This document shows, piece by piece, positions 4,319 to 18,201 of a DNA stretch of 20,548 nt. Origin of the DNA: Synergistaceae bacterium UBA1037 (GTDB taxonomy: Bacteria > Synergistota > Synergistia > Synergistales > Synergistaceae); the NCBI GenBank assembly GCA_002316795.1, contig DCEE01000020.1, positions 114,769 to 135,316 on the forward strand, written 5' to 3'. The notes under the pieces are model-generated. The model did not search any database. It saw nothing but the letters and a program-made list of their open reading frames with translations, and was not told the DNA's origin. The position numbers and the translations under genes are program-made. How positions within the stretch are numbered: the first letter of the stretch is position 1; each line of letters begins with the position of its first letter.

Positions 4319-4352
4319 GATACGATTGTACATTAGCTGGGAGCTGGTGACC

Positions 4353-7223
4353 ATGGACCTCAAAAAAATTTTTGAAAGCATGTATGGCCATACTCGTCAG
4401 GAATGGACAGACGGCTCAGGGGACAATGAGAACGGATGGGATGATGCCAGGCCTAAGATACCGAACATCAGGATGCCAAAAATCTCTAGGCTATGGCTTG
4501 GCCTGGGCGGTCTGTTCCTCCTCTTCACAGTGATCCTGCCCGGACTGGCAATTTTTTTGACCGACCTCTATTGGTTTGAATCCTACGGATTTGAGGCAGT
4601 CTTCTGGAGGAGGTTCACGGCCAGGTGGGAACTCTTTTTTATTGCTCTTGTACCGGCATTTCTTATCTATTGGTACAACTGGCGTTCGGCATGGAAAAAC
4701 GGACTGAGGCTTATCAGCGACGGATCAGAGGAAGTTGTCGGGCTTCGCGCCTCTAAATGGGCCATAATAGCGGCTGCTGCACTTTTTGCTGTCGTCAATG
4801 CGCTGAACGCGATGGAGTCGTGGGGCACTTTCCTCAAATTTATCGATCCCACACCATTCGGCGAAACAGATCCGCTGTTTGGCAAGGATATTGGTTTTTA
4901 TGTTTTCACACTCCCATTCATAAATTATCTCCAGTCATGGCTTCAGGGAGTACTGACCGTTGCTCTGATCGGCACCTTCGCATCATATTTTATGACGAGG
5001 TCCCTTTCGCTTGACGGAGCAAAATTGACCGCCACTCTGAGGGCAAGGCTCCATATGTCCCTTCTCGGATCGCTCCTGTTGATCGTGTGGGGAGCCGGAT
5101 ACTGGCTTGCAAGGTATGAGATACTTTTTTCTCCGACAGGAGTGGTTTTTGGAGCGGGCTATACAGACGTAAAGATCCTCCTGCCGTCCTACAGTATCCT
5201 GGCAGCTGCCGCTGCAGCGGCGGCTGCTCTCCTGCTTATGAATTTTTACAGGCCAATGTGGAAGATGTCGGCTGTGCTGATCGGGATCCTGCTGCTGCTG
5301 GGTTGGGTCGCCAGATCGTTTGTACCTGGCCTTGTCCAGCAGTACAGGGTAAAGCCTAACGAATACGAACTTGAAAAACCATTCCTTGGTTACCATCTTG
5401 ACTATACCAGGAGGGCTTTCGGACTGAACAGCGTGAGGACGATCCCACTGACGCCGGAAAATGAGGTCACTCCTGAAGAACTGCAGGCCGACCAGGAGAC
5501 CGTGAGGAATATCAGGCTGTGGGATTACTCTCCGCTCCTGAGGACATACAAGCAGCTCCAGGCCATAAGGACGTATTATGACTTTGATGATGTCTACATA
5601 GACAGGTACAAGCTGAACGGAGGGAACAGGCAGGTAATGCTGTCCGTAAGGGAGCTTGACCTGTCCAAACTGCAGAACCAGACATGGGTGAACATGCACC
5701 TTGAATTTACCCACGGATACGGGGTAGTGATGAATCCCGTCAACGAAGTCTCTCCCGGAGGGCTCCCGCACTTTTTCATGAAGGACCTGCCTCCCAGATC
5801 GACCGTTGACATAAAACTTGACAGGCCGCAGATCTATTATGGATCCATGAAGGACTTTTATGTCCTGGTAAATACAGATGTCAAAGAGTTTGACTATCCG
5901 ATGGGCGACTCCAACGTAAGAAGTACCTACGAAGGAGATGGAGGCGTGGAGATCGGTTCTTTCTGGAGAAGGCTGCTTTTTACGCTTAGGTTCAGGGATA
6001 CCGAGATACTTTTCACAGGCGCGCTCAGGCCCGAGAGCAGGGTGCTTTACTACCGGAATGTCAGGGAGGCGCTGGGTGAAGTTGCTCCATTCCTCCTTTT
6101 TGACGGAGACACTTATCCAGTCATATTCAACGGCCGCATAATCTGGGTCCAGGACGCTTTTACATGGACCCACAGGTATCCTTATTCGAAGCCTGTAATG
6201 ACAGCTGACCCGACGCTGAGACATTTCAACGGGGTCAATTACATAAGGAACAGCGTCAAAGCGACAGTCGACGCCTATGACGGGAAAATGTCATTCTACA
6301 TAGTCGATGAAAAAGATCCAGTAGCGCGGACCTGGCAGAAAATATTCCCTCATATTTTCAAACCTGCTGGCGCGATGTCCGAAGAGCTTTGGAAGCACAT
6401 GAGGTATCCGGAAGACTTTTTCGAGGTCCAGACGGATGTTTACAGAACATACCACATGACTGATACCAACACATACTACAACAGGGAAGACGTGTGGGAG
6501 GTCACTCCAGTCGGACGCGAGAGAAGGATCCAGCCAAACTATGTAACGATGAAGCTTTGGGGCGAAAAGGACCCTGAATTTGCTGTCATTGTCCCGTACA
6601 TGCCCCTGGGAAGGGACAATCTGATAGGCTGGATGGCCGGAAGGTGCGACCCCGACAATTACGGAGAGCTTCTGGTATATGAGTTCCCCAAACAAAAACT
6701 GATCTACGGTCCGGCTCAGATAGAGGCCCTGATAAACCAGCACCCTGAGATATCTTCACAGCTTTCGCTATGGAGCCAGAGAGGGTCGGATGTTATTATC
6801 GGTGATCTGCTTGTAATACCCATAGGAAAATCACTGCTCTATGTACAGCCGCTCTATCTTAAAGCCGAGAACGGCGAACTTCCCGAACTTAAGAGGGTGA
6901 TCGTCTCAACAGGGGGAAGGGTGGAGTGGAGCGAGACTTTTGCGGGAGCACTGCAAAAACTGATGGGAAAGAACGTCTTTGAAAAGGGTGGTCCGGCCGT
7001 TTACGGCGGAGCTCCGGCACCTAAGCGCGAAGAAGCGGAAAAAGAGCTGCCCTCTGTAAAGAAAATCAGCGAAAATGATATCGCCTCCCTTGCAAAATTA
7101 GCGCAGGAATTATACGATTCGGCCCAGGAAGCGCAGCGGCAGGGCGACTGGGCGCTTTACGGGGAGAAGATAAAAGAACTTGGGAATGTGATCTCAGAAC
7201 TGGAAGAGAGGTCAAAAAAGTAA
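4353..7223 (+). CDS. UPF0182 family large membrane protein (COG1615)
   Basis: Encodes 956 residues from the ATG at 4353, which has GGGAG 9 nt upstream; an in-frame TTG at 4326 would add nine residues but has no good site. The soluble N-terminus is followed by about seven membrane segments, the first near residues 47-69 (LGLGGLFLLFTVILPGLAIF). The sixth is a striking poly-alanine helix. Next comes a domain of about 600 residues, presumably extracytoplasmic. Conserved family stretches include NEYELEKPFLGYHLDYTRRA, IRLWDYSPLL, TYYDFDDVYIDRY and the HGYG.V.NPVNEV region. The last 70 residues are charged and helical. UPF0182 has no established function. The gene leads a coupled operon: its TAA overlaps the next ATG by one base. 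Confidence 0.95.
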   Translation: MDLKKIFESMYGHTRQEWTDGSGDNENGWDDARPKIPNIRMPKISRLWLGLGGLFLLFTVILPGLAIFLTDLYWFESYGFEAVFWRRFTARWELFFIALVPAFLIYWYNWRSAWKNGLRLISDGSEEVVGLRASKWAIIAAAALFAVVNALNAMESWGTFLKFIDPTPFGETDPLFGKDIGFYVFTLPFINYLQSWLQGVLTVALIGTFASYFMTRSLSLDGAKLTATLRARLHMSLLGSLLLIVWGAGYWLARYEILFSPTGVVFGAGYTDVKILLPSYSILAAAAAAAAALLLMNFYRPMWKMSAVLIGILLLLGWVARSFVPGLVQQYRVKPNEYELEKPFLGYHLDYTRRAFGLNSVRTIPLTPENEVTPEELQADQETVRNIRLWDYSPLLRTYKQLQAIRTYYDFDDVYIDRYKLNGGNRQVMLSVRELDLSKLQNQTWVNMHLEFTHGYGVVMNPVNEVSPGGLPHFFMKDLPPRSTVDIKLDRPQIYYGSMKDFYVLVNTDVKEFDYPMGDSNVRSTYEGDGGVEIGSFWRRLLFTLRFRDTEILFTGALRPESRVLYYRNVREALGEVAPFLLFDGDTYPVIFNGRIIWVQDAFTWTHRYPYSKPVMTADPTLRHFNGVNYIRNSVKATVDAYDGKMSFYIVDEKDPVARTWQKIFPHIFKPAGAMSEELWKHMRYPEDFFEVQTDVYRTYHMTDTNTYYNREDVWEVTPVGRERRIQPNYVTMKLWGEKDPEFAVIVPYMPLGRDNLIGWMAGRCDPDNYGELLVYEFPKQKLIYGPAQIEALINQHPEISSQLSLWSQRGSDVIIGDLLVIPIGKSLLYVQPLYLKAENGELPELKRVIVSTGGRVEWSETFAGALQKLMGKNVFEKGGPAVYGGAPAPKREEAEKELPSVKKISENDIASLAKLAQELYDSAQEAQRQGDWALYGEKIKELGNVISELEERSKK

Positions 7224-7702
7224 TGTTCACAATACTTTTCGGAGCTTTGGCGGTCATCGTATTAGTCCTGATGTGCTTTGGGATCTATATTTTTGCTGCA
7301 TATGTCTTTTCCAGGCTCGGGGAGAAGTTCAGGATCGGCTCTTTCCTGCAGTTCCTGATCCCCTTTTATAACGTGATGCTCCTTTGCGACTGCGCAAGGA
7401 TCTCACGCTGGTTCACGGTGGCTATCATCGCACCGGGGATAGTTACGGCTGCCATGAACTTCGTAAGCTTCTACCTTTTTTCCGAGGTCTTCAGTTCAGG
7501 TGCCGCACTGGTAGCCTTTGCAGCCAATGTATATCTCTGGGGAAAAATAGCCGAGAGGCTTGGTAAAAATTTCTGGCTCTGGGGGATACTGACTCCTGTC
7601 CTTCTGGGACTTCCGGTCCTGATCCTGGCCTTTGACGGATCGATGCCGTCGAGGAACGGAGGATATTCAGGCAAAGGAGAGAAAAGATACATAGATGTCT
7701 AA
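7223..7702 (+). CDS. Small polytopic membrane protein, DUF5684-like
   Basis: Encodes 159 residues with four likely membrane segments (about 5-29, 63-87, 91-108 and 117-137) and a short polar tail. The pattern (aromatic first helix, K-x-R loop, IPFYN at 46-50, a small -RW- loop, then WGKIAERLGKNFWLWGILTPVLLGLP) resembles DUF5684-type proteins, which carry IPixN and 'iAkkFGK' motifs. The match is by eye only. The start ATG overlaps the UPF0182 stop as TAATG and has GAGAGG about 12 nt upstream inside that gene, implying translational coupling. The function is unknown; coupling suggests it works with UPF0182 in the inner membrane. The asparagine and proline in the first loop fit the family, but identification is moderate. 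Confidence 0.82.
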   Translation: MFTILFGALAVIVLVLMCFGIYIFAAYVFSRLGEKFRIGSFLQFLIPFYNVMLLCDCARISRWFTVAIIAPGIVTAAMNFVSFYLFSEVFSSGAALVAFAANVYLWGKIAERLGKNFWLWGILTPVLLGLPVLILAFDGSMPSRNGGYSGKGEKRYIDV

Positions 7703-8528
7703 GATCCATGCTGAACATCCTTATATTTTCGCAACAGAAGATACGCATAAAAAAGCCGGCAAAAGATGTTTAAAACATAAAATTGCATGGGATATCTTTT
7801 TCGCACTCCTCTTACTGCTCCTTACGGGGAGAGAGGCTTTGTGGGCTTCTGCGGCAGAGGAAACCATTTCCGAGGATATTGTGGCCAACATTGCATCCGC
7901 GGATGCAGAAACATCTCAGCCGCAGAGTGAAGAGTACTCTGCAAACTCTCTCATGCCTGAAATATTCGAAGTATCCCTGAACATGATCTATCCGCATGAA
8001 GGCGTCAAGAAGGATCAGCTGAGAAATTCCCTGAAGGAGCTCCTTGCGGCAGGAAGTGAAAAAGAGGCTGCAATAAAGATCGGTGCGGTAATGGGCAGTG
8101 AACGCAAAAAATCGACAGCCTACCTTGGCTTTTACTGCAGAGTGGCCCTACCCTATGTCAACGGAGGACTGGACGAGAGGGCACGTTTTCTTAGCTGGTT
8201 TTTGAACGGGTACGGAGGATCCGGAGTCGTTATCCTTTCTGAAGAAGGCATCGAAAAGATTATGGCGACCGGCAGAAAAAGGGGTGAATTCTGGCGTTTC
8301 GTTGAAGAGGGAAATGTACCTTCTGACAAGCTTGACAGGATCTACGGATCATCGGATGCATTTTATATCCCATTCACTGCCGGAGAGGTGTTTATATTGG
8401 ACATAATAGGTTCTGACAACGGAAAAGCCGCTTTGTGGAAGGTGCTGCCCGGAGGGATAAACAAAAAGACCTGGAGTGCCGGTACCTGGGAGAGAGAGAT
8501 AACGGTCAGAGGCGACAAGCTTTATTGA
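7695..8528 (+). CDS. Unrecognised exported or membrane-anchored protein
   Basis: Encodes 277 residues; I do not recognise the family. The ATG lies inside the previous gene (8-nt overlap), with AAGGAGA 14 nt upstream, rather far for a ribosome site. No other in-frame ATG, GTG or TTG precedes the hydrophobic segment, so this start is the simplest choice. The first 28 residues are basic and unusually long for a signal peptide. A hydrophobic run follows (about 33-50, ending LWASA-AEE), so it is either a signal peptide or an anchor. An acidic, Ser/Glu-rich linker (about 54-85) leads to a folded region rich in aromatic and charged residues, ending in W-x-AGTWEREITVRGDKLY, perhaps a beta-rich domain. 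It is coupled to the UPF0182 operon. Confidence 0.75.
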   Translation: MSKIHAEHPYIFATEDTHKKAGKRCLKHKIAWDIFFALLLLLLTGREALWASAAEETISEDIVANIASADAETSQPQSEEYSANSLMPEIFEVSLNMIYPHEGVKKDQLRNSLKELLAAGSEKEAAIKIGAVMGSERKKSTAYLGFYCRVALPYVNGGLDERARFLSWFLNGYGGSGVVILSEEGIEKIMATGRKRGEFWRFVEEGNVPSDKLDRIYGSSDAFYIPFTAGEVFILDIIGSDNGKAALWKVLPGGINKKTWSAGTWEREITVRGDKLY

Positions 8529-8553
8529 GACCGGTTGAATAGAGTAAAATATT

Positions 8554-8559
8554 TATAAT
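8554..8559 (+). promoter_or_regulatory. Possible -10 element between the two exported-protein genes
   Basis: A perfect TATAAT lies 27 nt before the ATG at 8587. The nearest -35-like sequence (TTGAAT, 8535-8540) is only 13 bp away and TTGAGA (8525-8530) is 23 bp away, so spacing is poor. It may be an internal promoter for the last gene of this cluster. Confidence 0.3.
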
Positions 8560-8586
8560 CATATTTTTTTGAGGGGTGTTGTGAAG

Positions 8587-9330
8587 ATGAGAGTAAAATG
8601 GACAGCAGCATTGATCCTGGTTTTGGCGTTTACCCTATATTCAGTGCCCGTCTTTGCAGCATCCGACTGGGACACTTTTGTGGCGGAAATGGAGAAGAAG
8701 GAGAAGATCAAAGACACAGGGGCAGCAATAGTTGCCGACATGCTTGATATCGCACCCGGGGGCACCGAGACCGAATTGTGGCAAAAACTGTGGAACGGGG
8801 AACCGCGCTGGAGAGCCGCTGCAGCTGTGGCGCTGATCAGCAGGATGTTTCCTGACGGCGATCCATCAAGGTGGCAGGAGGTGTCAGGCTTTGCCCCCCG
8901 GCAGAGCGTACAGCCGAGACAGCTTATCGCCATGGATGCGTTTTTCGTCGCTGTCGATTCCCTCAGCCGGATACCCGACGGGATATGGGGATCAGCCTAT
9001 CTGCTTGACCTTTTCGGCAAGTCCGGCATGGGTAAGGTGATGTTCATTGAAGAGATACCAGAGGGCATGGACAGGGTACTGAGCGAAGTCGTCTCCTCCA
9101 CGGGCCTTCCTGGCGACTGGAGCATAAAGAGGACACGAGGCAAACTTCCGGTACTGCCTCTCTACAGGGGCTACATAACGAGGAGTTCAGCCGATTCCAG
9201 AAACATGCAGTATCTTGATGGGTACGGCTCGATCGCGTCAAATGGCAAATATGCGTGGGACAGGGACAGAGGATATGTTTACCAGATCATCGAAGACAAC
9301 GGTTTCAGGGATGTCTGGATAGTACCGTGA
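8587..9330 (+). CDS. Unrecognised secreted protein
   Basis: Encodes 247 residues from the ATG at 8587. GAGGGG (8571-8576) is 10 nt upstream; a GTG at 8581 would add two residues and is only 4 nt from that site. Residues 1-24 are a clear signal peptide (MRVKWTAALILVLAFTLYS..VFA-ASDWD), so the protein is periplasmic or beyond. The mature part has a helical, charged first half with 'RWRAAAAVALISRMFP' and a 'RQLIAMDAFFVAVDSL' helix. Its C-terminal half is rich in Gly, Tyr and Arg and ends DNGFRDVWIVP. There are no cysteines and no recognisable catalytic motif. I could not align it convincingly with the exported protein just upstream. It lies 58 nt after that gene and before a strong terminator, so it likely closes the UPF0182 transcription unit. 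Confidence 0.78.
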   Translation: MRVKWTAALILVLAFTLYSVPVFAASDWDTFVAEMEKKEKIKDTGAAIVADMLDIAPGGTETELWQKLWNGEPRWRAAAAVALISRMFPDGDPSRWQEVSGFAPRQSVQPRQLIAMDAFFVAVDSLSRIPDGIWGSAYLLDLFGKSGMGKVMFIEEIPEGMDRVLSEVVSSTGLPGDWSIKRTRGKLPVLPLYRGYITRSSADSRNMQYLDGYGSIASNGKYAWDRDRGYVYQIIEDNGFRDVWIVP

Positions 9331-9476: not shown

Positions 9477-9553
9477 CTTAACAGACAGAGCTGCATAAAA
9501 CGAATTTTTTTGCAGTAAAAAGTTAGTTTTTGTCGTTTAGCGGGGGTGGAAGT

Positions 9554-11290
9554 ATGGAATATGGAGAGTATTATAAAAGTTTTGACCCTGAACCCTACTA
9601 CAGGGAACGCGGCTGGCTGATAGGCAGCGGAAGGGTAGGGGGAAAGGCAAAAGGGCTCAGTTTTGCCTATGAGATACTTAAATCGAACGGAATGCTCGAC
9701 GAAGTATGTTTGCCAAGATGCACCTTCGTTATTACTACATCCGTCTTTGAGGAGTTCATGGAAGAAAACAGGCTTTGGGACAGGCTGCTGGATCTCAGGG
9801 AACACAGCGATGCGCCGAAGCTGCACAGGATCTGCCAGGATGCCCATCTGCCCGAAAGCCTGGATATGGATCTGGAGATGATCCTGGATACAATAGATAC
9901 TCCGATGTCTGTCCGTTCATCATCGATATTGGAAGACGATGTCAATCTTTCTTTTGCAGGCAAATATGCAACAAAATTCGTCTCCAACAGCGGTGACAGA
10001 GCTTCAAGGAGAAGAGGCCTTGAGGCTGCGATCAAGGAGGTGTACGCGTCGACCTACAACCCGGCTGCCAGGGAGTACAAAAGGAAGCACAACATACTTT
10101 GGGGAGGCGAGCGGATGGGGGTCCTCATCCAGCCCATAGCGGGGAAGATGAGGGATAGTAAATATTATCCGGAGCTTGCAGGGACTGCCTTCTCGCAGGT
10201 CTTCAGAAGGCCTTCGCCAAGGATCAGGAAGGAAGACGGAGTGGCAAGGATATGCTTCGGCCTCGGCACAAGAACGGTCGACAGGAGCTTTGCCAGGACC
10301 TTCTACCTCACAAACCCGAACCTGAGACCCGAAGGCAACAGGCCTGCCGAGATAGTATCCCACTCTCAGGAACAGTTCGACTACGTTGACATAGAACACA
10401 ACGCCTTCATGACGGCTTATGCCGGGAACTATATCAGGATGATCATGCAGGAACACAAGATGGCCCAGTCATACCTTCAGTGGTATGACGGCAATATGTT
10501 CCATTGGCTTCTGGCGGACACCAGAGACATGGTTGCTCCCAGGGCTGTATTTACATTCGCGGAGCTTCCGCAGAAATGTCCTCAGCTGTTCAAAAGGATT
10601 AAAAAGCTGCTTCGGCTTTTTGAGGAGGAACTGCGGCTGCCATCCGACATGGAGTTTACATATGAGAGCGCAGGAGACGAATTTACGCTTGTTCAGCTCA
10701 GGCCGCTGTCAGTTTATGATGACAAGGGCAAGGTCGTCATACCTGAAGTCAGCCCCGAAAATACGATACTAAGGGGGAACCGGATGGTCGCAAACGGCAG
10801 GCTTGAGAACATAAAGCACATAGTGTATGTGGACCCTGAGCTTTATGGCAGGACACCGGACTTTTATGATGTGGCAAGGGCAATAGGAGAAATTAACGCA
10901 AAATTGGACGGGGAGAGATACCTTCTTGTGGGACCGGGGCGATGGGGAAGCTCAAATCCCGTTCTCGGAGTGCCTGTACAGTACAGTGAGCTTTCGAATT
11001 CAGGATGTCTTGTCGAACTTGGCATACCCAGCAAAGGCATGGCTCCGGAACTTTCGTACGGGACGCACTTTTTCCTCGATCTGGATGGAGACAACATACT
11101 CTACCTTCCCGTATTTGACGGAGAGAAAGGCAACGTCTACAACAAGGGATGGTTTGAGAGCAGAGAATGGACATCAGCCCACCATCCCGCCGTGAGGCAT
11201 TACCGCGGGACATTCGATGTCCTGCTTGACGGTGACAGTGAGGTTGGGGTAGTGATAGACAAGGGCGATACGGAGGTGAAGGGCAAGTGA
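9554..11290 (+). CDS. PEP synthase/pyruvate phosphate dikinase N-domain protein with novel C-terminus (paralogue A)
   Basis: Encodes 578 residues. ATG 9554 follows GGGGGTGGA; an in-frame TTG at 9530 is less likely. Residues 1-385 match the ATP-binding domain (PPDK_N, ATP-grasp-like) of PEP synthase and pyruvate phosphate dikinase. The glycine-rich GGKAKGL (29-35) corresponds to GGKGASL, and VRSSSILED with SFAGKY (120-138) to VRSSA..ED..SFAGQ. AGTAFSQVF (209-217) matches SGVMFT, and DMEFTYE..VQLRPL (365-384) carries the acidic and QxR metal/ATP residues. The mobile phosphohistidine domain and PEP/pyruvate barrel are absent. Residues from about 400 form a different domain with GPGRWGSSNP (460-469), VELGIP and ELSYGTHFF. 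It presumably activates an unknown acceptor with ATP. It is coupled to its paralogue by a GTGA overlap. Confidence 0.88.
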   Translation: MEYGEYYKSFDPEPYYRERGWLIGSGRVGGKAKGLSFAYEILKSNGMLDEVCLPRCTFVITTSVFEEFMEENRLWDRLLDLREHSDAPKLHRICQDAHLPESLDMDLEMILDTIDTPMSVRSSSILEDDVNLSFAGKYATKFVSNSGDRASRRRGLEAAIKEVYASTYNPAAREYKRKHNILWGGERMGVLIQPIAGKMRDSKYYPELAGTAFSQVFRRPSPRIRKEDGVARICFGLGTRTVDRSFARTFYLTNPNLRPEGNRPAEIVSHSQEQFDYVDIEHNAFMTAYAGNYIRMIMQEHKMAQSYLQWYDGNMFHWLLADTRDMVAPRAVFTFAELPQKCPQLFKRIKKLLRLFEEELRLPSDMEFTYESAGDEFTLVQLRPLSVYDDKGKVVIPEVSPENTILRGNRMVANGRLENIKHIVYVDPELYGRTPDFYDVARAIGEINAKLDGERYLLVGPGRWGSSNPVLGVPVQYSELSNSGCLVELGIPSKGMAPELSYGTHFFLDLDGDNILYLPVFDGEKGNVYNKGWFESREWTSAHHPAVRHYRGTFDVLLDGDSEVGVVIDKGDTEVKGK

Positions 11291-13035
11291 CCGATCTGGA
11301 AAGGACCAGGGAAGAGTATTTCGCATGGGACCCGCACAACGATCCGGAATTTGCGCCAATGATATTCGGCAAAGGGACGATTGGAGGAAAGGGCCGTTCC
11401 CTTCTTTTTGCGCTGAGAAAACTTCGTGATTCAGGTGATCCGCAGCTATCCAACAGCAAGGTCCCGGAGTCGATATACTTCGGGATAGACATTTTTCACC
11501 GTTTCCTTGAGTCAGTGCCGTCTCTGGACCTTCTGATATCGCAGAATGACCCGGAGAGGCTGGAAGAAGTTTTCCTCCGGACTCCGCTGCCGGCGACAGT
11601 GACTGAAGCAGTAAGGAATTTTCTCTCAGAGATGCACGACCCGGTTGTTATAAGGAGCAGCAGCAGGCTTGAGGATTCAGCCAAACATTCGTTTGCCGGA
11701 AAGTACCTGACGACATTCATGAGCAATGATTCACCGTCTCTGGAAGAGAGGGTGCTAATAGTTGAAAGGGAGATCAGGAAGATATATTCAAGGATATACT
11801 TCCCTGAAGCGACGAGCTACAGGAAAAAACACGGACTTGGCGATGACGACATGGGGATAATCGTTATCAGGATGTCCGGAAGATGGCACGGAAGGTACTA
11901 TTACCCCACCATAGCCGGAGTAGGCTATTCTCAGAATTTCCGACGATGGAACAAAAGGGTGAAACAAAAGGACGGTGTTCTCAGGCTTGTCTTTGGACTG
12001 GGGACCATGAGTACGAAGAGAGGTTATGCAAGGACGATATCCCTGACGAATGCGTATCTGAGGCCGGACGGACAGAGTCCGGAAAAGATCGCTATCCATT
12101 CCCAGGAAAGATTCCATGTGATCGACAGGGAAAGACCCAATGAACTGACGACGCTCGACATCAAAAAAGAATGGCGTCAGCTGATAGAATATCATCCCGA
12201 CTTTGACGCCTATGCGCAGATATATTGCTATGATCCCGACGGGGGATGCCTCTCTTCTCTGATGAAATCCACTCAGAGGATCGATCTGGGATCAAAGGTT
12301 TGCCTGACCTTTGACAACTTCCCGAAAAAATACCCAAACTTTTTTGAAAGGATGAAAAAGACGCTCCCTCTGCTGGAGTCTTCGATGGGGCTGCCGGCAG
12401 ACATCGAGTTTGCATATGAACCTCTCGATGACAGTTTTTGCTTGATACAGTCGCGTCCGTGCTGGTGTCAGACATGCGAGGAGGAAGGGATCCCCGACCT
12501 TGGCGGAAAGAGGGTAATTCTGAAGGCTGACAGGATGGTCACGCCCGGAGTGCTCCACAACATACCCTGCCTCGTATATATCGACCACTTGCAATACTAT
12601 TCAAATCCTGATTTTTTCAAGGTCGCGCGGGGGATCGGCGAAATAAATGAACAGATGAAAGGACAGAAGTTCATCTTTGTCTCGCCCGGCAGGGTAGGGT
12701 CGAGCAACCCCGAACTTGGAGTACCGGTAAAGTACAACGAGCTTACAAACTGCTGCTGCATAGTCGAACTTGGCATACCCAGGCTCGGATTTATGCCTGA
12801 ACTCTCTTACGGGACCCACTTCTTCTCAGATCTTGCAGTGGACAGTGTCCTCTACATGCCCGTCTTTGAGGGAGAATCAAACAATCTCATAGATCAGGAG
12901 TGGTTCACCGAAAACGAGTGGGAAGAGGGTCCACATCCGGCAATAAGGATATACAGGGGGAACTTTTCAGCCTACATGGACGGAGAGAGCAACCAGGGAG
13001 TAATAATCGACAACGGAACATCTGCAGAAGGGTAA
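11287..13035 (+). CDS. PEP synthase/pyruvate phosphate dikinase N-domain protein with novel C-terminus (paralogue B, Cys-rich)
   Basis: Encodes 582 residues from a GTG start overlapping the previous stop by 4 nt; GGAGGTGA (11272-11279) 7 nt upstream makes this start secure. It is colinear with paralogue A. GGKGRSL lies at 33-39, VIRSSSRLED and SFAGKY at 121-140, AGVGYSQNF at 210-218, and DIEFAYE..LIQSRP at 372-391. The ATP-binding residues therefore appear intact. No phosphohistidine or barrel domain is present. The C-terminal domain repeats SPGRVGSSNP (466-475), VELGIP and PELSYGTHFF. Distinctive features are CWCQTC (392-397) just after the ATP domain and CCC (489-491), where A has only a single cysteine (485). 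The pair probably acts as one heteromeric enzyme or as two related ones; the substrate is unknown. Confidence 0.88.
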   Translation: MTDLERTREEYFAWDPHNDPEFAPMIFGKGTIGGKGRSLLFALRKLRDSGDPQLSNSKVPESIYFGIDIFHRFLESVPSLDLLISQNDPERLEEVFLRTPLPATVTEAVRNFLSEMHDPVVIRSSSRLEDSAKHSFAGKYLTTFMSNDSPSLEERVLIVEREIRKIYSRIYFPEATSYRKKHGLGDDDMGIIVIRMSGRWHGRYYYPTIAGVGYSQNFRRWNKRVKQKDGVLRLVFGLGTMSTKRGYARTISLTNAYLRPDGQSPEKIAIHSQERFHVIDRERPNELTTLDIKKEWRQLIEYHPDFDAYAQIYCYDPDGGCLSSLMKSTQRIDLGSKVCLTFDNFPKKYPNFFERMKKTLPLLESSMGLPADIEFAYEPLDDSFCLIQSRPCWCQTCEEEGIPDLGGKRVILKADRMVTPGVLHNIPCLVYIDHLQYYSNPDFFKVARGIGEINEQMKGQKFIFVSPGRVGSSNPELGVPVKYNELTNCCCIVELGIPRLGFMPELSYGTHFFSDLAVDSVLYMPVFEGESNNLIDQEWFTENEWEEGPHPAIRIYRGNFSAYMDGESNQGVIIDNGTSAEG

Positions 13036-13044
13036 AATAAATAT

Positions 13045-13074
13045 AAAAAAGGGGCAGCCCGGAAAGGCCGCCCC
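13045..13074 (-). terminator. Intrinsic terminator of the acidic repeat-protein operon
   Basis: On the minus strand GGGGCGGCC pairs with GGCTGCCCC (one mismatch, 6-nt loop; 13051-13074) and runs straight into TTTTTT followed by an AT-rich tail (13045-13050 onward). It lies 22 nt past the stop of the gene ending at 13096. On the plus strand the hairpin lacks a T-run, so it would stop the dikinase-like transcript only weakly. Confidence 0.8.
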
Positions 13075-13095
13075 TACTGCAAGTATCTCTGTCTA

Positions 13096-14010
13096 TCAGT
13101 CAAGAAGCTTTTCCACTATTGCACCGGTCTCGCCCAGCGCCACGGCGTCTATCTCCTCGGGGTCGCATCTCTGCTGCTCCATTTCACGGATCTTAGCCTT
13201 GGCCTCTTCCACTTCTTTCAGAACTCCGGCACCGTCGTATCCTTCCAGCAGGAGCTTGATGTCCTTCTCATCCGTCAGCCTGTCGGTCAGATAGCCGAAG
13301 AGGAATGCCGGCGCGCTGAGTGCGGCGAGCCTGTTGTCGGAGGAACACCACGGCTCTGCCACATAGGTGGCGTAATTTATGGTATCTTCCATCTCTTCGT
13401 CGATATCGTCGTCAGACTCGGGGAACTCCCATATGTTCAGGACGAAGAAGGGAACATTCGGATCAAGCGAGATAGCGTAGTTCACTGCATCGCGGATATC
13501 GGCAGGGTCTGCTTCAGTCTCAATAAGCGCGATAGCGCGGGCATGCTCCCCGACGACGGATTCAAGGGGATCGCTCTCAAGCGTTTCGAAAATCTCCCTG
13601 TACATCTGGAGATCCAGCAGGCAGCGGTAAAGAAGTGTCCTGCTCGGATAGAATCCCTCATCATCAAAGTTTGCGAACTCTCTTGCGATCTCCAGAGCCT
13701 CCTCGGTCTTTTGCTCTGCGAGCAGCGAGTATCCCAGGTTCATCATAATGGTGCAGTATGCCTGCGCATCTCTGTCTTCTTCGAGGTCGGGAGGGGTCTC
13801 TTTTTCGGATATTATCATCCTGATGCCGGAAAGTGCCTCCCTGAGCATGTCAAGATTTTCGATACAGTCGTCATAAGTCATAGTTTCCCAGACTGCCAGT
13901 TTCCCGTAAGGGCTGTCAGGGTCTTTTTCAAGTATCTCCCTGCCGATCTCACTGATTTCTTCATCGGTATCTGCCGCGTCAAGCCTTTCAAGAAGCTCTT
14001 CGATATTCAT
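13096..14010 (-). CDS. Acidic TPR-like helical repeat protein
   Basis: Encodes 304 residues, very acidic and rich in Glu, Asp and Leu, with no signal peptide or membrane segment, so cytoplasmic. The ATG has AAGGAG 8-9 nt upstream. The N-terminal part (LEKDPDSPYGKLAVWE) and segments such as AQAYCTIMMNLGYSLLAEQKTEEALEIAREF show the paired amphipathic helices of tetratricopeptide repeats (a small residue at helix contacts, then E-ALEIA). Similar 'P.yGKLALWE' starts occur in bacterial TPR proteins labelled ST7-like, but I only recall this loosely. It would act as a protein-binding scaffold; no partner is evident. It is the second gene of a two-gene unit, 14 nt downstream of the small exported protein, and ends at a strong terminator. 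Confidence 0.83.
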   Translation of the reverse strand: MNIEELLERLDAADTDEEISEIGREILEKDPDSPYGKLAVWETMTYDDCIENLDMLREALSGIRMIISEKETPPDLEEDRDAQAYCTIMMNLGYSLLAEQKTEEALEIAREFANFDDEGFYPSRTLLYRCLLDLQMYREIFETLESDPLESVVGEHARAIALIETEADPADIRDAVNYAISLDPNVPFFVLNIWEFPESDDDIDEEMEDTINYATYVAEPWCSSDNRLAALSAPAFLFGYLTDRLTDEKDIKLLLEGYDGAGVLKEVEEAKAKIREMEQQRCDPEEIDAVALGETGAIVEKLLD

Positions 14011-14709: not shown

Positions 14710-16155
14710 TTGATAAAGATAAAGTTTGTGCACCGCGTGGTCTTTCTCTCATTCCTGTTTTTAGCTCTTTTGTTTAATTCAATGGCAAGCGCTGATGAAA
14801 ATGACAGGTATCTCGACATAATTTTTTCTTACGGACCCTCAAGGGACCTGCTGGGGACAGCCATTGTCCGCGGAAAGGATATATGGGTGCCCGCAGATCT
14901 CCTGGGTACGCTGGGGCTGCCCTTAACGAAAGGTCCGAATGGAAAGGGCTTTCTTATTGAAGTCAGGGAACCTGCCAAAGTTTTTGGCATTAAGGAACTT
15001 GAGAGGCTGTCAGGAAGATCCATTTCTTTATATTTCCCCTCGATGGACAATGAGGGTACCTCTTATTTCAACGTAACAGGATTGGAACAACTGACAGGGA
15101 TAGCTGCAGATGAGAGAAACGCTGGTCTCGAACTCAAAAGGATCACTCTCAATACCCCTTTGAACATAAGAAAGCCTGATAATGCCTTCCTGAAAAATAA
15201 ACAGATCACCCTTGCGTGGGCACACATCACAAGGGATAATCCCGATCTCGGAGCGGAAGAACGCATTGATGGGCTTGATGTGATCTCGCCGACATGGTTT
15301 AACCTTACCGACGGCAGCGGAAATATGGCAAACAGAGCCTCCGCAGCCTATGTTGAGGCTGCGCGCGAAAAGGGATACCGCATATGGCCCCTTGTTTCAA
15401 ACGGCTTCAGCAAAGAGAACACGTCAAGGTTTTTCAACGACACTGCTGCCGTGAATATCTTTATTGCACGAATTCTATGTTATTCGAAGCTCTATGGTTT
15501 CGACGGCATAAACATAGATTTTGAAAATGTTGATGCTGCCGACAGGGACAAATATGTGCGTTTCATCTCGCTGCTCAGCGGTTATCTCAAAGGGGAGGGT
15601 CTTGTAAGCTCTGTAGACGTCCACGTACCCGGAAACAGCAATCTGTCAAGGAGCCACGACAGGGGGGCACTTTCAAAACACGTTGATTACGTTATGCTCA
15701 TGGCCTATGACGAACATTGGAGGACCTCTCCGAGGGCGGGTTCTGTCGCTTCGATGCCGTGGGTCGAACGTGCGGTGCAAAAAACAATAGAGGAGGGCGT
15801 GCCTCCTGCAAAGCTGATATTAGGCGTTCCTTTTTACATGAGGAAATGGGAGGAATCTCCGACGGGTCAGGGCAAGGTAAAAGTCAAAGGTTCCACCCTT
15901 ACTATGGCCGAGTCAGATTCTATTATTTACGAAAGAGGACTCTCCCCGGTATGGCTCAGTGACAAGGGGCAGTATTTCTATTCGTATCTTTCAGAGGGAA
16001 AGACCTATAAGGTATGGGTAGAAAACAGGGATTCCATAAAAACCAAGCTCTCGATCCTTGATAAGTACCGCCTTGCCGGGGTCGCGGGGTGGAGGAAGGG
16101 ACACGAGACTCCTGATGTCTGGGATACGATAAGAACTTTAGTAAAGAACAGGTAA
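14710..16155 (+). CDS. Exported glycoside hydrolase family 18 protein (YaaH/SleL-like), with N-terminal stalk-like domain
   Basis: Encodes 481 residues from a TTG at 14710; AAGGGGG ends 9 nt upstream. A closer ATG (14705) opens only a two-codon frame, ATG AAT TGA. Residues 1-28 are a signal peptide ending SMASA. Residues 33-150 have the short strand-turn pattern of copper-amine-oxidase-type stalk domains (IVRGKDIWVPADLLGTLG and similar). From about 165 comes a GH18 barrel. DGINIDFE (265-272) supplies the catalytic D270 and E272, and MAYDEHW (331-337) and LGVPFYMRKW (371-380) line the cleft. The end (YRLAGVAGWRKGHETPDVW) is typical of YaaH/SleL enzymes that cleave peptidoglycan or related GlcNAc polymers. 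LysM repeats are absent. It probably remodels the cell wall in the periplasm. Confidence 0.9.
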   Translation: MIKIKFVHRVVFLSFLFLALLFNSMASADENDRYLDIIFSYGPSRDLLGTAIVRGKDIWVPADLLGTLGLPLTKGPNGKGFLIEVREPAKVFGIKELERLSGRSISLYFPSMDNEGTSYFNVTGLEQLTGIAADERNAGLELKRITLNTPLNIRKPDNAFLKNKQITLAWAHITRDNPDLGAEERIDGLDVISPTWFNLTDGSGNMANRASAAYVEAAREKGYRIWPLVSNGFSKENTSRFFNDTAAVNIFIARILCYSKLYGFDGINIDFENVDAADRDKYVRFISLLSGYLKGEGLVSSVDVHVPGNSNLSRSHDRGALSKHVDYVMLMAYDEHWRTSPRAGSVASMPWVERAVQKTIEEGVPPAKLILGVPFYMRKWEESPTGQGKVKVKGSTLTMAESDSIIYERGLSPVWLSDKGQYFYSYLSEGKTYKVWVENRDSIKTKLSILDKYRLAGVAGWRKGHETPDVWDTIRTLVKNR

Positions 16156-16287: not shown

Positions 16288-18201
16288 TTACCAGCCCTTT
16301 GCTCCTCCGCCGCCTCCGCCGCCTCCCGCAAAACCGCCGCCTCCCATACCTGAAGATGTCCCGGGGGCAGACTGCGGAGCCATGCTTTGCCCCAGGCTGC
16401 TGCCTAGGCTTGACGAGAAATTATTCAGGCCCGAACCATTCAGGAATAGATATGGCGAAGGTCCTGAATACCATTCGGGCTTATAACTGGCTTTTGTCAA
16501 AACACTTTCGAACCTGTTGCCCCAGGTTTTTGCAACATCGAGTGCGAGTGCGTAAGGAAGAAGCTTTTCAAAGAGCTCCGGAGTCTCTTCCGGAGGGTTG
16601 AACATTTCAAGCCTCTCTTTTTCTGCTGTGTCCATGTATAGCTTGAGACCTTCTGCCTCGCTCAAAATATTGCTGCCCTTTTGAGTCCTTGAGACCATAA
16701 GAGGCCTCATAACAGCAATGATCGCTGCCGAAGCTACGAAAAAGACAAATGTGAATGGGGAGAGGCCCTCTCCCCCAAGCGCTATTGCTCCTACAAGACC
16801 CACAGCAAGCGCAGGGAAAGCTCTTCCAAGGAACTGCCTTATATTCTGTCCGCCGGTATTTGCAGCTTTGCTCAGCCTCATTCCCAGCCCAATGATAAGA
16901 AGTCCGCAAACCCCGGCCAGCATGGTGTTCAATGGATATTCCCCGCTGAATGGGTAGCTTGCTGCTATTCCAAGCCCATACAAAGCAAGGCCGGGCAACA
17001 TCTTATCTGTGTTTCTTGTAAAAATTGCAGAGTTTGTGTTTCTGAGATTTCTTGCAAGACTTCTCATTGCTCCGGAAATTATGTCGCCGTTATCCTGAAC
17101 TAAAGATACGCTGTCTATGCTTCCGGGGAAAAGCTGCATCATTAGAGCCTCTTCTTCAGGCTGAAGTTTTTCCGGTTCGGTCTCTTTCTCATGCAACACA
17201 AAGTGGCCCTTGCCCTTTCCAAAGAAAGTTTCTCTTCCTTCAACTTCGACGATTTTAATTGCTCCCTTAACAGCCAGCCCTATTATTGCAGCAGTGAAGC
17301 CTGTCTGATCGAGCCGCATGTCCCTTACGTACCTCAGGAATGCGGGAGATGCACCATCCGGTGCGTAGAAAAGCGGGATCACTGTCTTTTTATCCGGGTC
17401 TTTGCCCCACTTTTTCCAGGCAAACCAGAACCAACCGGAGATCAAAGCAAATGTCGCTGCTGCTATACCTCCCTGAGCCTTTTGATTGTCCCTGGCAGGA
17501 GGGGGCGGTGGAGTTACCAGATCTTTCGGCCATGTGTAGACTACGGTGAAAACTTCTCCCGGCTGAAGCGGCCCGACTGTGAAAACGCTTCCGGAATCCT
17601 GTCTCGCCCTGCTGTTGTCTCCCTTTGTACCATACCGGCCCACATACCACTCTATCGTGTTGAATCCTTCTCCGAAATTTTTTCCTGGAAGCGCGACCCT
17701 GCATGATGCTTCAAGAACCGGGAAAGAAAAATCTTTTCCCGTTACATTCCAGTAGAGTTCGTCGTGGTCCTCAAAAAATCCTATGTGCCTTTCGATCCGG
17801 TATTTTATCAGAAATGTATGGAGTCCCCTGGGTATGATCTTATTTGGATCTCCGATCTTAACATCAACGTTTACCCCTGCTCTCACAGAACTCCATGGGA
17901 TGTTTTGACCGTCAAGCTTTATATCTGTTATCTCTAGTTTGAGTTCTGTTGAATTGCCTTTTCCGTCCCTGTATTCCACAGGGAGCGAACGGATTATGCC
18001 CCTGTTGATCTCGATATTCTCAACGTTGACAAGAATTTCTTCAGTAACTTCTACAGAGCTGTTCTCATTTATTATTATGTCAGCGTTGAACCTGTTGAAG
18101 GTTTCTCTTGCTTCGGTCACTTTAACTCCTGACAATATAACGAAAACAGCCGCGCACAGCAGTGCCGTAATTTTAATAAGACAGTCTCTGGTGTTCCTCA
18201 T
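16288..18201 (-). CDS. DUF2207 domain membrane protein, glycine-rich C-terminus
   Basis: Encodes 637 residues. The start has GAGGGAGGG just upstream. Residues 1-31 are a signal peptide. The DUF2207 domain (about 33-228) carries the hallmark DELYWNVTG (147-155) and a TFLIKYRIERHIGFF segment just before it. A TPPPPPARD linker precedes a membrane segment (about 245-263, ISGWFWFAWKKWG). Next is a cytoplasmic region with PLFYAPDGASPAFLRY, then two or three helices near 405-500, and a C-terminal Gly-rich tail (FAGGGGGGGGAKGW). This domain order is normal for the family. The function is unknown, but DUF2207 genes are habitually next to lemA, as here (33-nt gap), which suggests a membrane complex. 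The glycine-rich end resembles that of TPM-domain LemA partners. Confidence 0.92.
   Translation of the reverse strand: MRNTRDCLIKITALLCAAVFVILSGVKVTEARETFNRFNADIIINENSSVEVTEEILVNVENIEINRGIIRSLPVEYRDGKGNSTELKLEITDIKLDGQNIPWSSVRAGVNVDVKIGDPNKIIPRGLHTFLIKYRIERHIGFFEDHDELYWNVTGKDFSFPVLEASCRVALPGKNFGEGFNTIEWYVGRYGTKGDNSRARQDSGSVFTVGPLQPGEVFTVVYTWPKDLVTPPPPPARDNQKAQGGIAAATFALISGWFWFAWKKWGKDPDKKTVIPLFYAPDGASPAFLRYVRDMRLDQTGFTAAIIGLAVKGAIKIVEVEGRETFFGKGKGHFVLHEKETEPEKLQPEEEALMMQLFPGSIDSVSLVQDNGDIISGAMRSLARNLRNTNSAIFTRNTDKMLPGLALYGLGIAASYPFSGEYPLNTMLAGVCGLLIIGLGMRLSKAANTGGQNIRQFLGRAFPALAVGLVGAIALGGEGLSPFTFVFFVASAAIIAVMRPLMVSRTQKGSNILSEAEGLKLYMDTAEKERLEMFNPPEETPELFEKLLPYALALDVAKTWGNRFESVLTKASYKPEWYSGPSPYLFLNGSGLNNFSSSLGSSLGQSMAPQSAPGTSSGMGGGGFAGGGGGGGGAKGW

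Follow-up and report, generated by a model that had tools for sequence, protein, structure and literature searches.

What do two adjacent genes contribute to a bacterium when each encodes the ATP-binding half of a phosphoenolpyruvate (PEP) synthase-like dikinase followed by a domain that has no name? The question is raised by a tandem pair, here termed A and B, in a 20,548-nucleotide stretch (the window) of contig DCEE01000020.1 from Synergistaceae bacterium UBA1037, whose genome assembly comprises 1.75 Mb in 64 contigs and is 90% complete. Our answer is tentative and, in our judgement, has close to an even chance of being right: A and B may be ATP-charged two-domain phosphocarriers that modify or signal to glutamate dehydrogenase (GDH) and glutamate/ammonium metabolism. 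The features concerned are listed below; residues of A are counted from TTG 9530 (586 aa), from which 8 is subtracted for the ATG start.

9554..11290, plus strand: gene A, encoding an ATP-grasp (PPDK_N) domain and a predicted swivel-like C-terminal domain; 578 aa if read from the ATG, 586 aa as the mechanically called open reading frame (ORF) from TTG 9530
9632..10747, plus strand: ATP-grasp/PPDK_N domain of A, residues 35-406 (PF01326, 122.8 bits)
10694..11287, plus strand: predicted swivel-like C-terminal domain of A, residues 389-586 (R471, E496, S509 and H513 invariant; structural matches to RPH and PPDK swivel domains)
11066..11068, plus strand: codon of A His513, the proposed phosphocarrier (invariance; helix start in the model)
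11287..11290, plus strand: GTGA start/stop overlap of four bases, the GTG of B lying on the TGA of A (sequence)
11287..13035, plus strand: gene B, paralog of A, 582 aa, GTG start (ORF, translation, PF01326, 40% identity to A)
11377..12462, plus strand: ATP-grasp/PPDK_N domain of B, residues 31-392 (PF01326, 104.6 bits)
12448..13032, plus strand: predicted swivel-like C-terminal domain of B (alignment with A and relatives)
12817..12819, plus strand: codon of B His511, the equivalent of A His513 (alignment, motif)

An initial annotation, made from the sequence, had described two ATP-grasp dikinase-type genes in tandem with a GTGA overlap, and each element of this description was recovered (ORFs, PF01326 matches, Shine-Dalgarno (SD) sites and the overlap). 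An SD-like GGGGGTGG can be read at 9542-9549, ahead of ATG 9554, whilst B has its own strong SD, GGAGGTGA, at 11272-11279 inside the end of A. The overlap suggests that A and B are translationally coupled. The two proteins share 40% identity across 580 columns, an identity that extends through the C-terminal domain, and the ATP-site and C-terminal motifs pointed out initially (GGK, RSSS, LED, FAGKY, QxRP, PGRxGSSNP and GTHFF) are all present in both.

As judged from sequence, A and B are members of the PPDK/PEP-synthase dikinase superfamily by their ATP-grasp part (PF01326), both scoring far above the PPDK_N cut-off of 27 bits. Residues K39, R129, E135, D136, D373, E375, Q389 and R391 of A are identical to the aligned K27, R127, E133, D134, D318, E320, Q334 and R336 of Escherichia coli PpsA, known as catalytic residues from work on PEP synthase and PPDK. 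Across 29 diverse full-length members these eight ATP-site residues were invariant, except Asp373 (Glu in Parabacteroides distasonis). Significant sequence matches in the PDB were PEP synthase-type entries (RPH and HpeI included), all to the ATP-grasp part; with the single sequence as query, no match fell below E 0.29. No Pfam family besides PF01326 was detected in A or B at E <= 0.1, and NCBIfam matches were far below cut-off only, mostly to PEP synthase, prodigiosin-ligase and RPH models (the RPH equivalog gave 25 and 24.1 bits for A and B vs a cut-off of 999). A PEP/pyruvate-binding barrel was found neither by Pfam nor in the model; both proteins end after the C-terminal domain.

This C-terminal domain has no name in Pfam or NCBIfam. 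In the collected family proteins of 520-700 aa (A and B in, chimeras P0046 and P0194 out), PGRxG was kept in 234/234 and the His also in 234/234, 233 of them as GTHFF or GSHFF and P0242 as GTHFY, a conservation that is far beyond chance. R471, E496, S509 and H513 were invariant in 69/69 aligned C-terminal domains, as were P469, G470, R471, G473, S474, G480, E496, S509, G511, H513, F514 and F515 among the 29 diverse members. The pattern scan that collected many relatives used PGRxGS and GTHFF peptides, so the conservation of those letters in alignment A4 owes something to the selection itself; this bias touches neither E496 nor the proteins found by phmmer.

The AlphaFold2 model of A (predicted local distance difference test (pLDDT) 91.7, predicted TM-score 0.90) places H513 as the first residue of helix 513-520, and the C-terminal domain modelled alone reached a pLDDT of 88.3. 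In the whole model this domain superposes on swivel phosphohistidine domains in several top structural matches. For the isolated domain, the five best structural matches (VIA) were likewise phosphohistidine swivel domains, that of RPH being the best. The initial annotation had regarded both the phosphohistidine segment and the barrel as missing. The barrel and a TxxGGxxxHAA-type motif are indeed absent, but the domain itself appears to be there as a predicted swivel fold with an invariant His; to read the phosphohistidine segment as missing is thus probably wrong. The further claim that the chemistry must differ from that of known dikinases is not supported. A match to a known phosphohistidine domain, which had been named as a result that would speak against the initial reading, was obtained by predicted structure and not by profile-profile comparison. 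We infer, rather than compute, that His513 may be the residue-by-residue counterpart of the known catalytic His.

How widespread is this arrangement? Matches at E <= 1e-5 were obtained in 110/185 Synergistota genomes; in eight of the 110 the best match (7e-9 to 5e-12) is probably an ordinary dikinase, leaving 102. Among the matches listed, 54 Synergistota genomes had both an A-type and a B-type protein (typed by score), which lay within 300 bp of each other in 28/54, further apart on one contig in 6/54 and on different contigs in 20/54. The tandem also occurs outside this window, and it is not obligatory. A pattern scan of genome contigs returned at least 597 stretches, of which 583 were confirmed and 80 kept; relatives among the kept stretches came from Chloroflexota, Planctomycetota, Acidobacteriota, Verrucomicrobiota, Armatimonadota, Bacillota, Thermodesulfobacteriota, Myxococcota and archaea. 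Presence outside Synergistota is patchy, and the family occurred in only 5/61 genomes (E <= 1e-60) in an unbiased sample from the phylum of a Bellilinea genome (G185, itself counted). Bacteroidota relatives were added by tblastn of a plasmid collection. One Bacteroidota protein of 984 aa has 30% identity to A over 572 columns, C-terminal domain included, and an N-terminal part of ~400 residues with a receiver match of 28.2 bits, just below the cut-off of 30.2. Receiver matches were found in 3/10 scanned relatives, one of them above cut-off.

A tree of 128 rows, built by a quick method with long branches flagged and a root for drawing only, separated eight receiver-type proteins of ~1000 aa (group one), 58 proteins of ~740-1170 aa from Chloroflexota and many others (group two) and 62 short Synergistota proteins (group three). 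Within group three A and B are sister groups (support 100 for B, 87 for A with one sequence titled Symbiobacterium inside, and 99 for A+B). Relatives outside Synergistota mostly have an extra N-terminal part, which Synergistota A and B lack. Pairing probably arose more than once, since tandems also occur in Myxococcota (L090 and L091, both group one) and in L053 and L062 (each with one group-one and one group-two kinase).

Some additional forms were recorded. Two members, L062:3886-7014 and L068:3574-7071 (an archaeon and an Acidobacterium), are extended at their C termini, where a weak nucleotidyltransferase-like match was obtained. Apparent fusions to a nucleotidyltransferase and to a serine hydroxymethyltransferase-like protein (P0046, P0194) were rejected and read as chimeric contigs. 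A phage-borne gene was also rejected. Three unverified 'Bacteriophage sp.' records matched, two covering >= 80% of A and one the ATP-grasp part only, and these faecal records are probably bacterial DNA; the faecal phage-titled scaffolds MT835811.1 and MT835667.1 (L147, L146) hold Bacteroidota-type family genes, and none of the viral contigs scanned with the Bacteroidota protein was confirmed. An anti-phage role was rejected, as no PADLOC model matched A, B or either of two relatives (E <= 0.01).

On what might such proteins act? The commonest genomic neighbour of the family is GDH, followed by glutamate-synthase-type genes. Among co-directional neighbours outside Synergistota (n = 57; neighbour ORFs were called mechanically) GDH (ELFV_dehydrog) occurred 9 times, the glutamate-synthase region 5 times and NrpR domains 3 times. 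Immediate neighbours on either strand (n = 113) comprised 15 GDH and 7 glutamate-synthase-type genes, the next families reaching at most 3; the control for the GDH excess is these other Pfam families in the same list. GDH was detected by tblastn in 26/102 loci. Because the 5/61 genomes of the G185 phylum are too few for a GDH count, the count rests on the pattern-scan loci: GDH was present in 19/61 non-Synergistota loci, 15 of these within 600 bp, over 459 kb of flank. About 0.3 would be expected in this flank if a genome of 3-4 Mb is assumed to hold one or two GDH genes (87 matches were found in 55 Synergistota genomes), which equates to an excess of some sixtyfold across loci that are not phylogenetically independent. 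Outside the 61 are L069 (a near-duplicate of L068), L029 (titled Bacillota, no open ORF with both motifs) and L019 (titled Symbiobacterium, which groups with Synergistota and gave no GDH match).

In group two the nearest GDH was upstream on the same strand in 12/17 such loci; the gap could be as small as 10 bp, or the two genes overlapped briefly (L038, L045, L078). L050 has a GltD-like gene immediately upstream, overlapping by one base in the mechanical ORF calls. In Parabacteroides distasonis and Phocaeicola massiliensis GdhA adjoins upstream and a second GdhA lies <= 5 kb downstream, each oriented opposite to the family gene; a Prevotella record had no GDH in its flank. Within Synergistota (55 genomes, one A row each, distances for the 23 one-contig genomes and G017 (541 kb)), GDH was convergent with A and within 300 bp in 8/55, at ~10 kb or less in 4 more, at 18 kb in one and on a different contig in 31/55. 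Several Synergistota genomes have two GDH paralogs at the locus, and in L148 the order is A, GDH, B, GDH, each kinase gene facing a GDH. Some Synergistota loci are the same genome twice (e.g. L018 and L149), so locus and genome counts are not additive.

Two further observations concern these loci. Many Synergistota that do not belong to the window's genus encode a class II (D/K/N type) aminoacyl-tRNA synthetase of ~434 aa immediately ahead of A (L018, L017, L141, L136, L026, L139, L134, L016 and L148-L153, of which L149 and L152 seem to repeat L018 and L026). In L053 and L062 the tandem of a group-one and a group-two kinase is flanked on either side by GDH genes of two different types, and the two types of kinase may each be matched to one type of GDH.

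How could these parts work together? In RPH, as described in PMC4844700, the His of the swivel domain receives its phosphate within the ATP-grasp domain, after which it moves > 40 A to the acceptor domain. The ATP-grasp domain of A/B, to go by its residues, would bind ATP and phosphorylate His513 of A or His511 of B on a strongly diverged swivelling domain, as fold, position and invariance suggest. Because the third domain, which in PEP synthase, PPDK and RPH takes the small-molecule acceptor, is absent, the phosphoryl group would pass to a separate partner in its place; and because GDH is the commonest neighbour, with glutamate-synthase-type genes next, GDH is our candidate for the partner or regulated target. 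The receiver-like N terminus of group-one relatives could sense a signal, whilst Synergistota A and B, which have no extra N-terminal part, may act as two paired sister proteins. We infer the GDH link for the A and B of this window as well. A more specific version, which we think possible and rather doubtful, is an undescribed ancient phosphorelay of bacteria and archaea in which the dikinase charges the swivel His and the phosphate goes to GDH or a GDH-bound partner, not to a metabolite, the duplicated A and B serving two GDH paralogs or forming one heteromer. Among the mostly open-access papers searched, none was found on the function of this family, of the two-gene arrangement or on the GDH link. 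At the family level, the initial view of the pair as the window's best candidate for an undescribed enzyme system finds support, and the idea of such a system is strengthened.

Several results weigh against this proposal. By sequence, hhalign gave 0.2% for a phosphohistidine domain and nothing in local or global mode; PF00391 had no match in A or B at E <= 0.1; and the classical G[GS]x[TS][SC]HxA pattern occurred in 0/243 collected family proteins. Foldseek returned no match at E <= 0.001 for the isolated domain, its best rows being a chitinase domain and a glycosylase with poor TM-scores, and several non-phosphohistidine proteins came within about one Z unit of that domain's best structural matches. 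The conserved GDH neighbourhood behind a GDH-linked regulatory system holds at the family level (19/61, 8/55) and not in the window's own genome, where GDH lies on another contig and not beside A/B. The fold searches turned up no known acceptor domain for the C-terminal part, an absence from the result list only.

Could a known system account for A and B instead? PEP synthase (PpsA; pyruvate, water dikinase) shares the ATP-site residues mapped in A and has its swivel domain where A has the predicted swivel-like one (2ols), and PPDK has the same two domains by the predicted structure of A (1dik, 1kbl). Unlike PEP synthase, A/B have no sequence-recognisable TxxGGxxxHAA and carry their His in an S-x-GTHFF context; the barrel of both enzymes is absent from A/B, and no PPDK model was among the NCBIfam matches. 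Source names such as 'pyruvate, phosphate dikinase' and the PPDK_N match would fit an ordinary PEP synthase or PPDK, yet this is highly implausible given the lack of barrel and classical phosphohistidine motif and the presence in the same genome of a separate 891-aa protein with PPDK_N and PF00391. RPH supplies the swivel domain that best matches the isolated C-terminal domain, but in RPH that swivel is at the C-terminal region in another domain order, whereas A/B lack a drug-binding domain and have their C-terminal domain directly after the ATP-grasp. Bacteroidota receiver-linked PPDK-type proteins ('PEP/pyruvate-binding domain-containing protein') resemble A over nearly its whole length, with the same C-terminal domain, and differ from A/B in their ~400-residue N-terminal part and in being a single gene, with GdhA on both sides in two species. 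In HpeHI, CreHI and PpsAB a dikinase function is also spread over two genes (PMC12167813), one protein being ATP-grasp only and the other swivel plus substrate domains, whereas A and B are paralogs that each have both domains. A split small-molecule dikinase of this type, with a metabolite as acceptor and the binding domain on another protein or in the swivel domain, would agree with the stand-alone ATP-grasp subunit described for HpeHI and with HpeI (9goj) among the structural matches of A. We nevertheless consider it unlikely: HpeH-type partners carry the swivel domain according to the same source, the host genome, 90% complete, shows only two PF00391 proteins (the 891-aa protein and one of 585 aa), and no acceptor-binding family recurs among the neighbours listed, whilst GDH and glutamate synthase do.

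The remaining alternatives concern what the two domains do. A nucleotide-sensing regulator without turnover would bind ATP or AMP and act on GDH through direct contact, with the C-terminal domain as no more than a docking module. This would suit the association with GDH and the receiver-like N-terminal parts of some relatives, and receiver domains lacking the Asp are reported to be highly associated with PPDK effector domains (PMC4395418); it is quite unlikely, as conservation of the mapped ATP-site residues and of the His extends throughout, which is unexpected in a binding-only protein. Alternatively, the C-terminal domain may be an unrelated swivelling-type fold whose invariant His serves another reaction. 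The missing profile and Foldseek matches and the close non-phosphohistidine scores are what such a fold would give, but the domain stands behind the ATP-grasp as the swivel does in PEP synthase and PPDK, one rigid-body superposition covers it in several entries, and phosphohistidine domains are the five best matches of the domain alone. We regard this explanation as improbable.

Some other features of the window were noted. Directly upstream of A, closely spaced ORFs at 4326-9330 (plus strand) form a possible operon. The first encodes a 965-aa UPF0182 protein and the second a protein of 159 aa that matches DUF5684 below threshold, whilst the last two products (277 and 253 aa) matched nothing in Pfam at E <= 0.1. 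Downstream are a 481-aa member of glycosyl hydrolase family 18 (14710-16155, plus strand) and a DUF2207 protein of 637 aa (16288-18201, minus strand). A terminator-like hairpin (13050-13075, minus strand; 11 pairs, 8 G-C) lies behind the minus-strand gene at 13096-14010; its stem is also just behind B, and the scan yields such sites no oftener than in shuffled sequence. No Rfam match reached the gathering threshold across the window.

GDH lies at the meeting point of carbon and nitrogen metabolism and is an enzyme on which amino-acid fermenters depend, Synergistota and gut Bacteroidota among them. Of the new findings the strongest is the GDH neighbourhood in many phyla, which gives this family a concrete, testable function; with an intact ATP site and an invariant His in a GDH-adjacent family, the control of GDH in these organisms becomes directly testable. 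If the phosphocarrier proposal is true, the dikinase superfamily would gain a two-domain form with no acceptor domain of its own, and a role would be found for many proteins whose present annotation says no more than PEP/pyruvate-binding or that bear the name pyruvate, phosphate dikinase.

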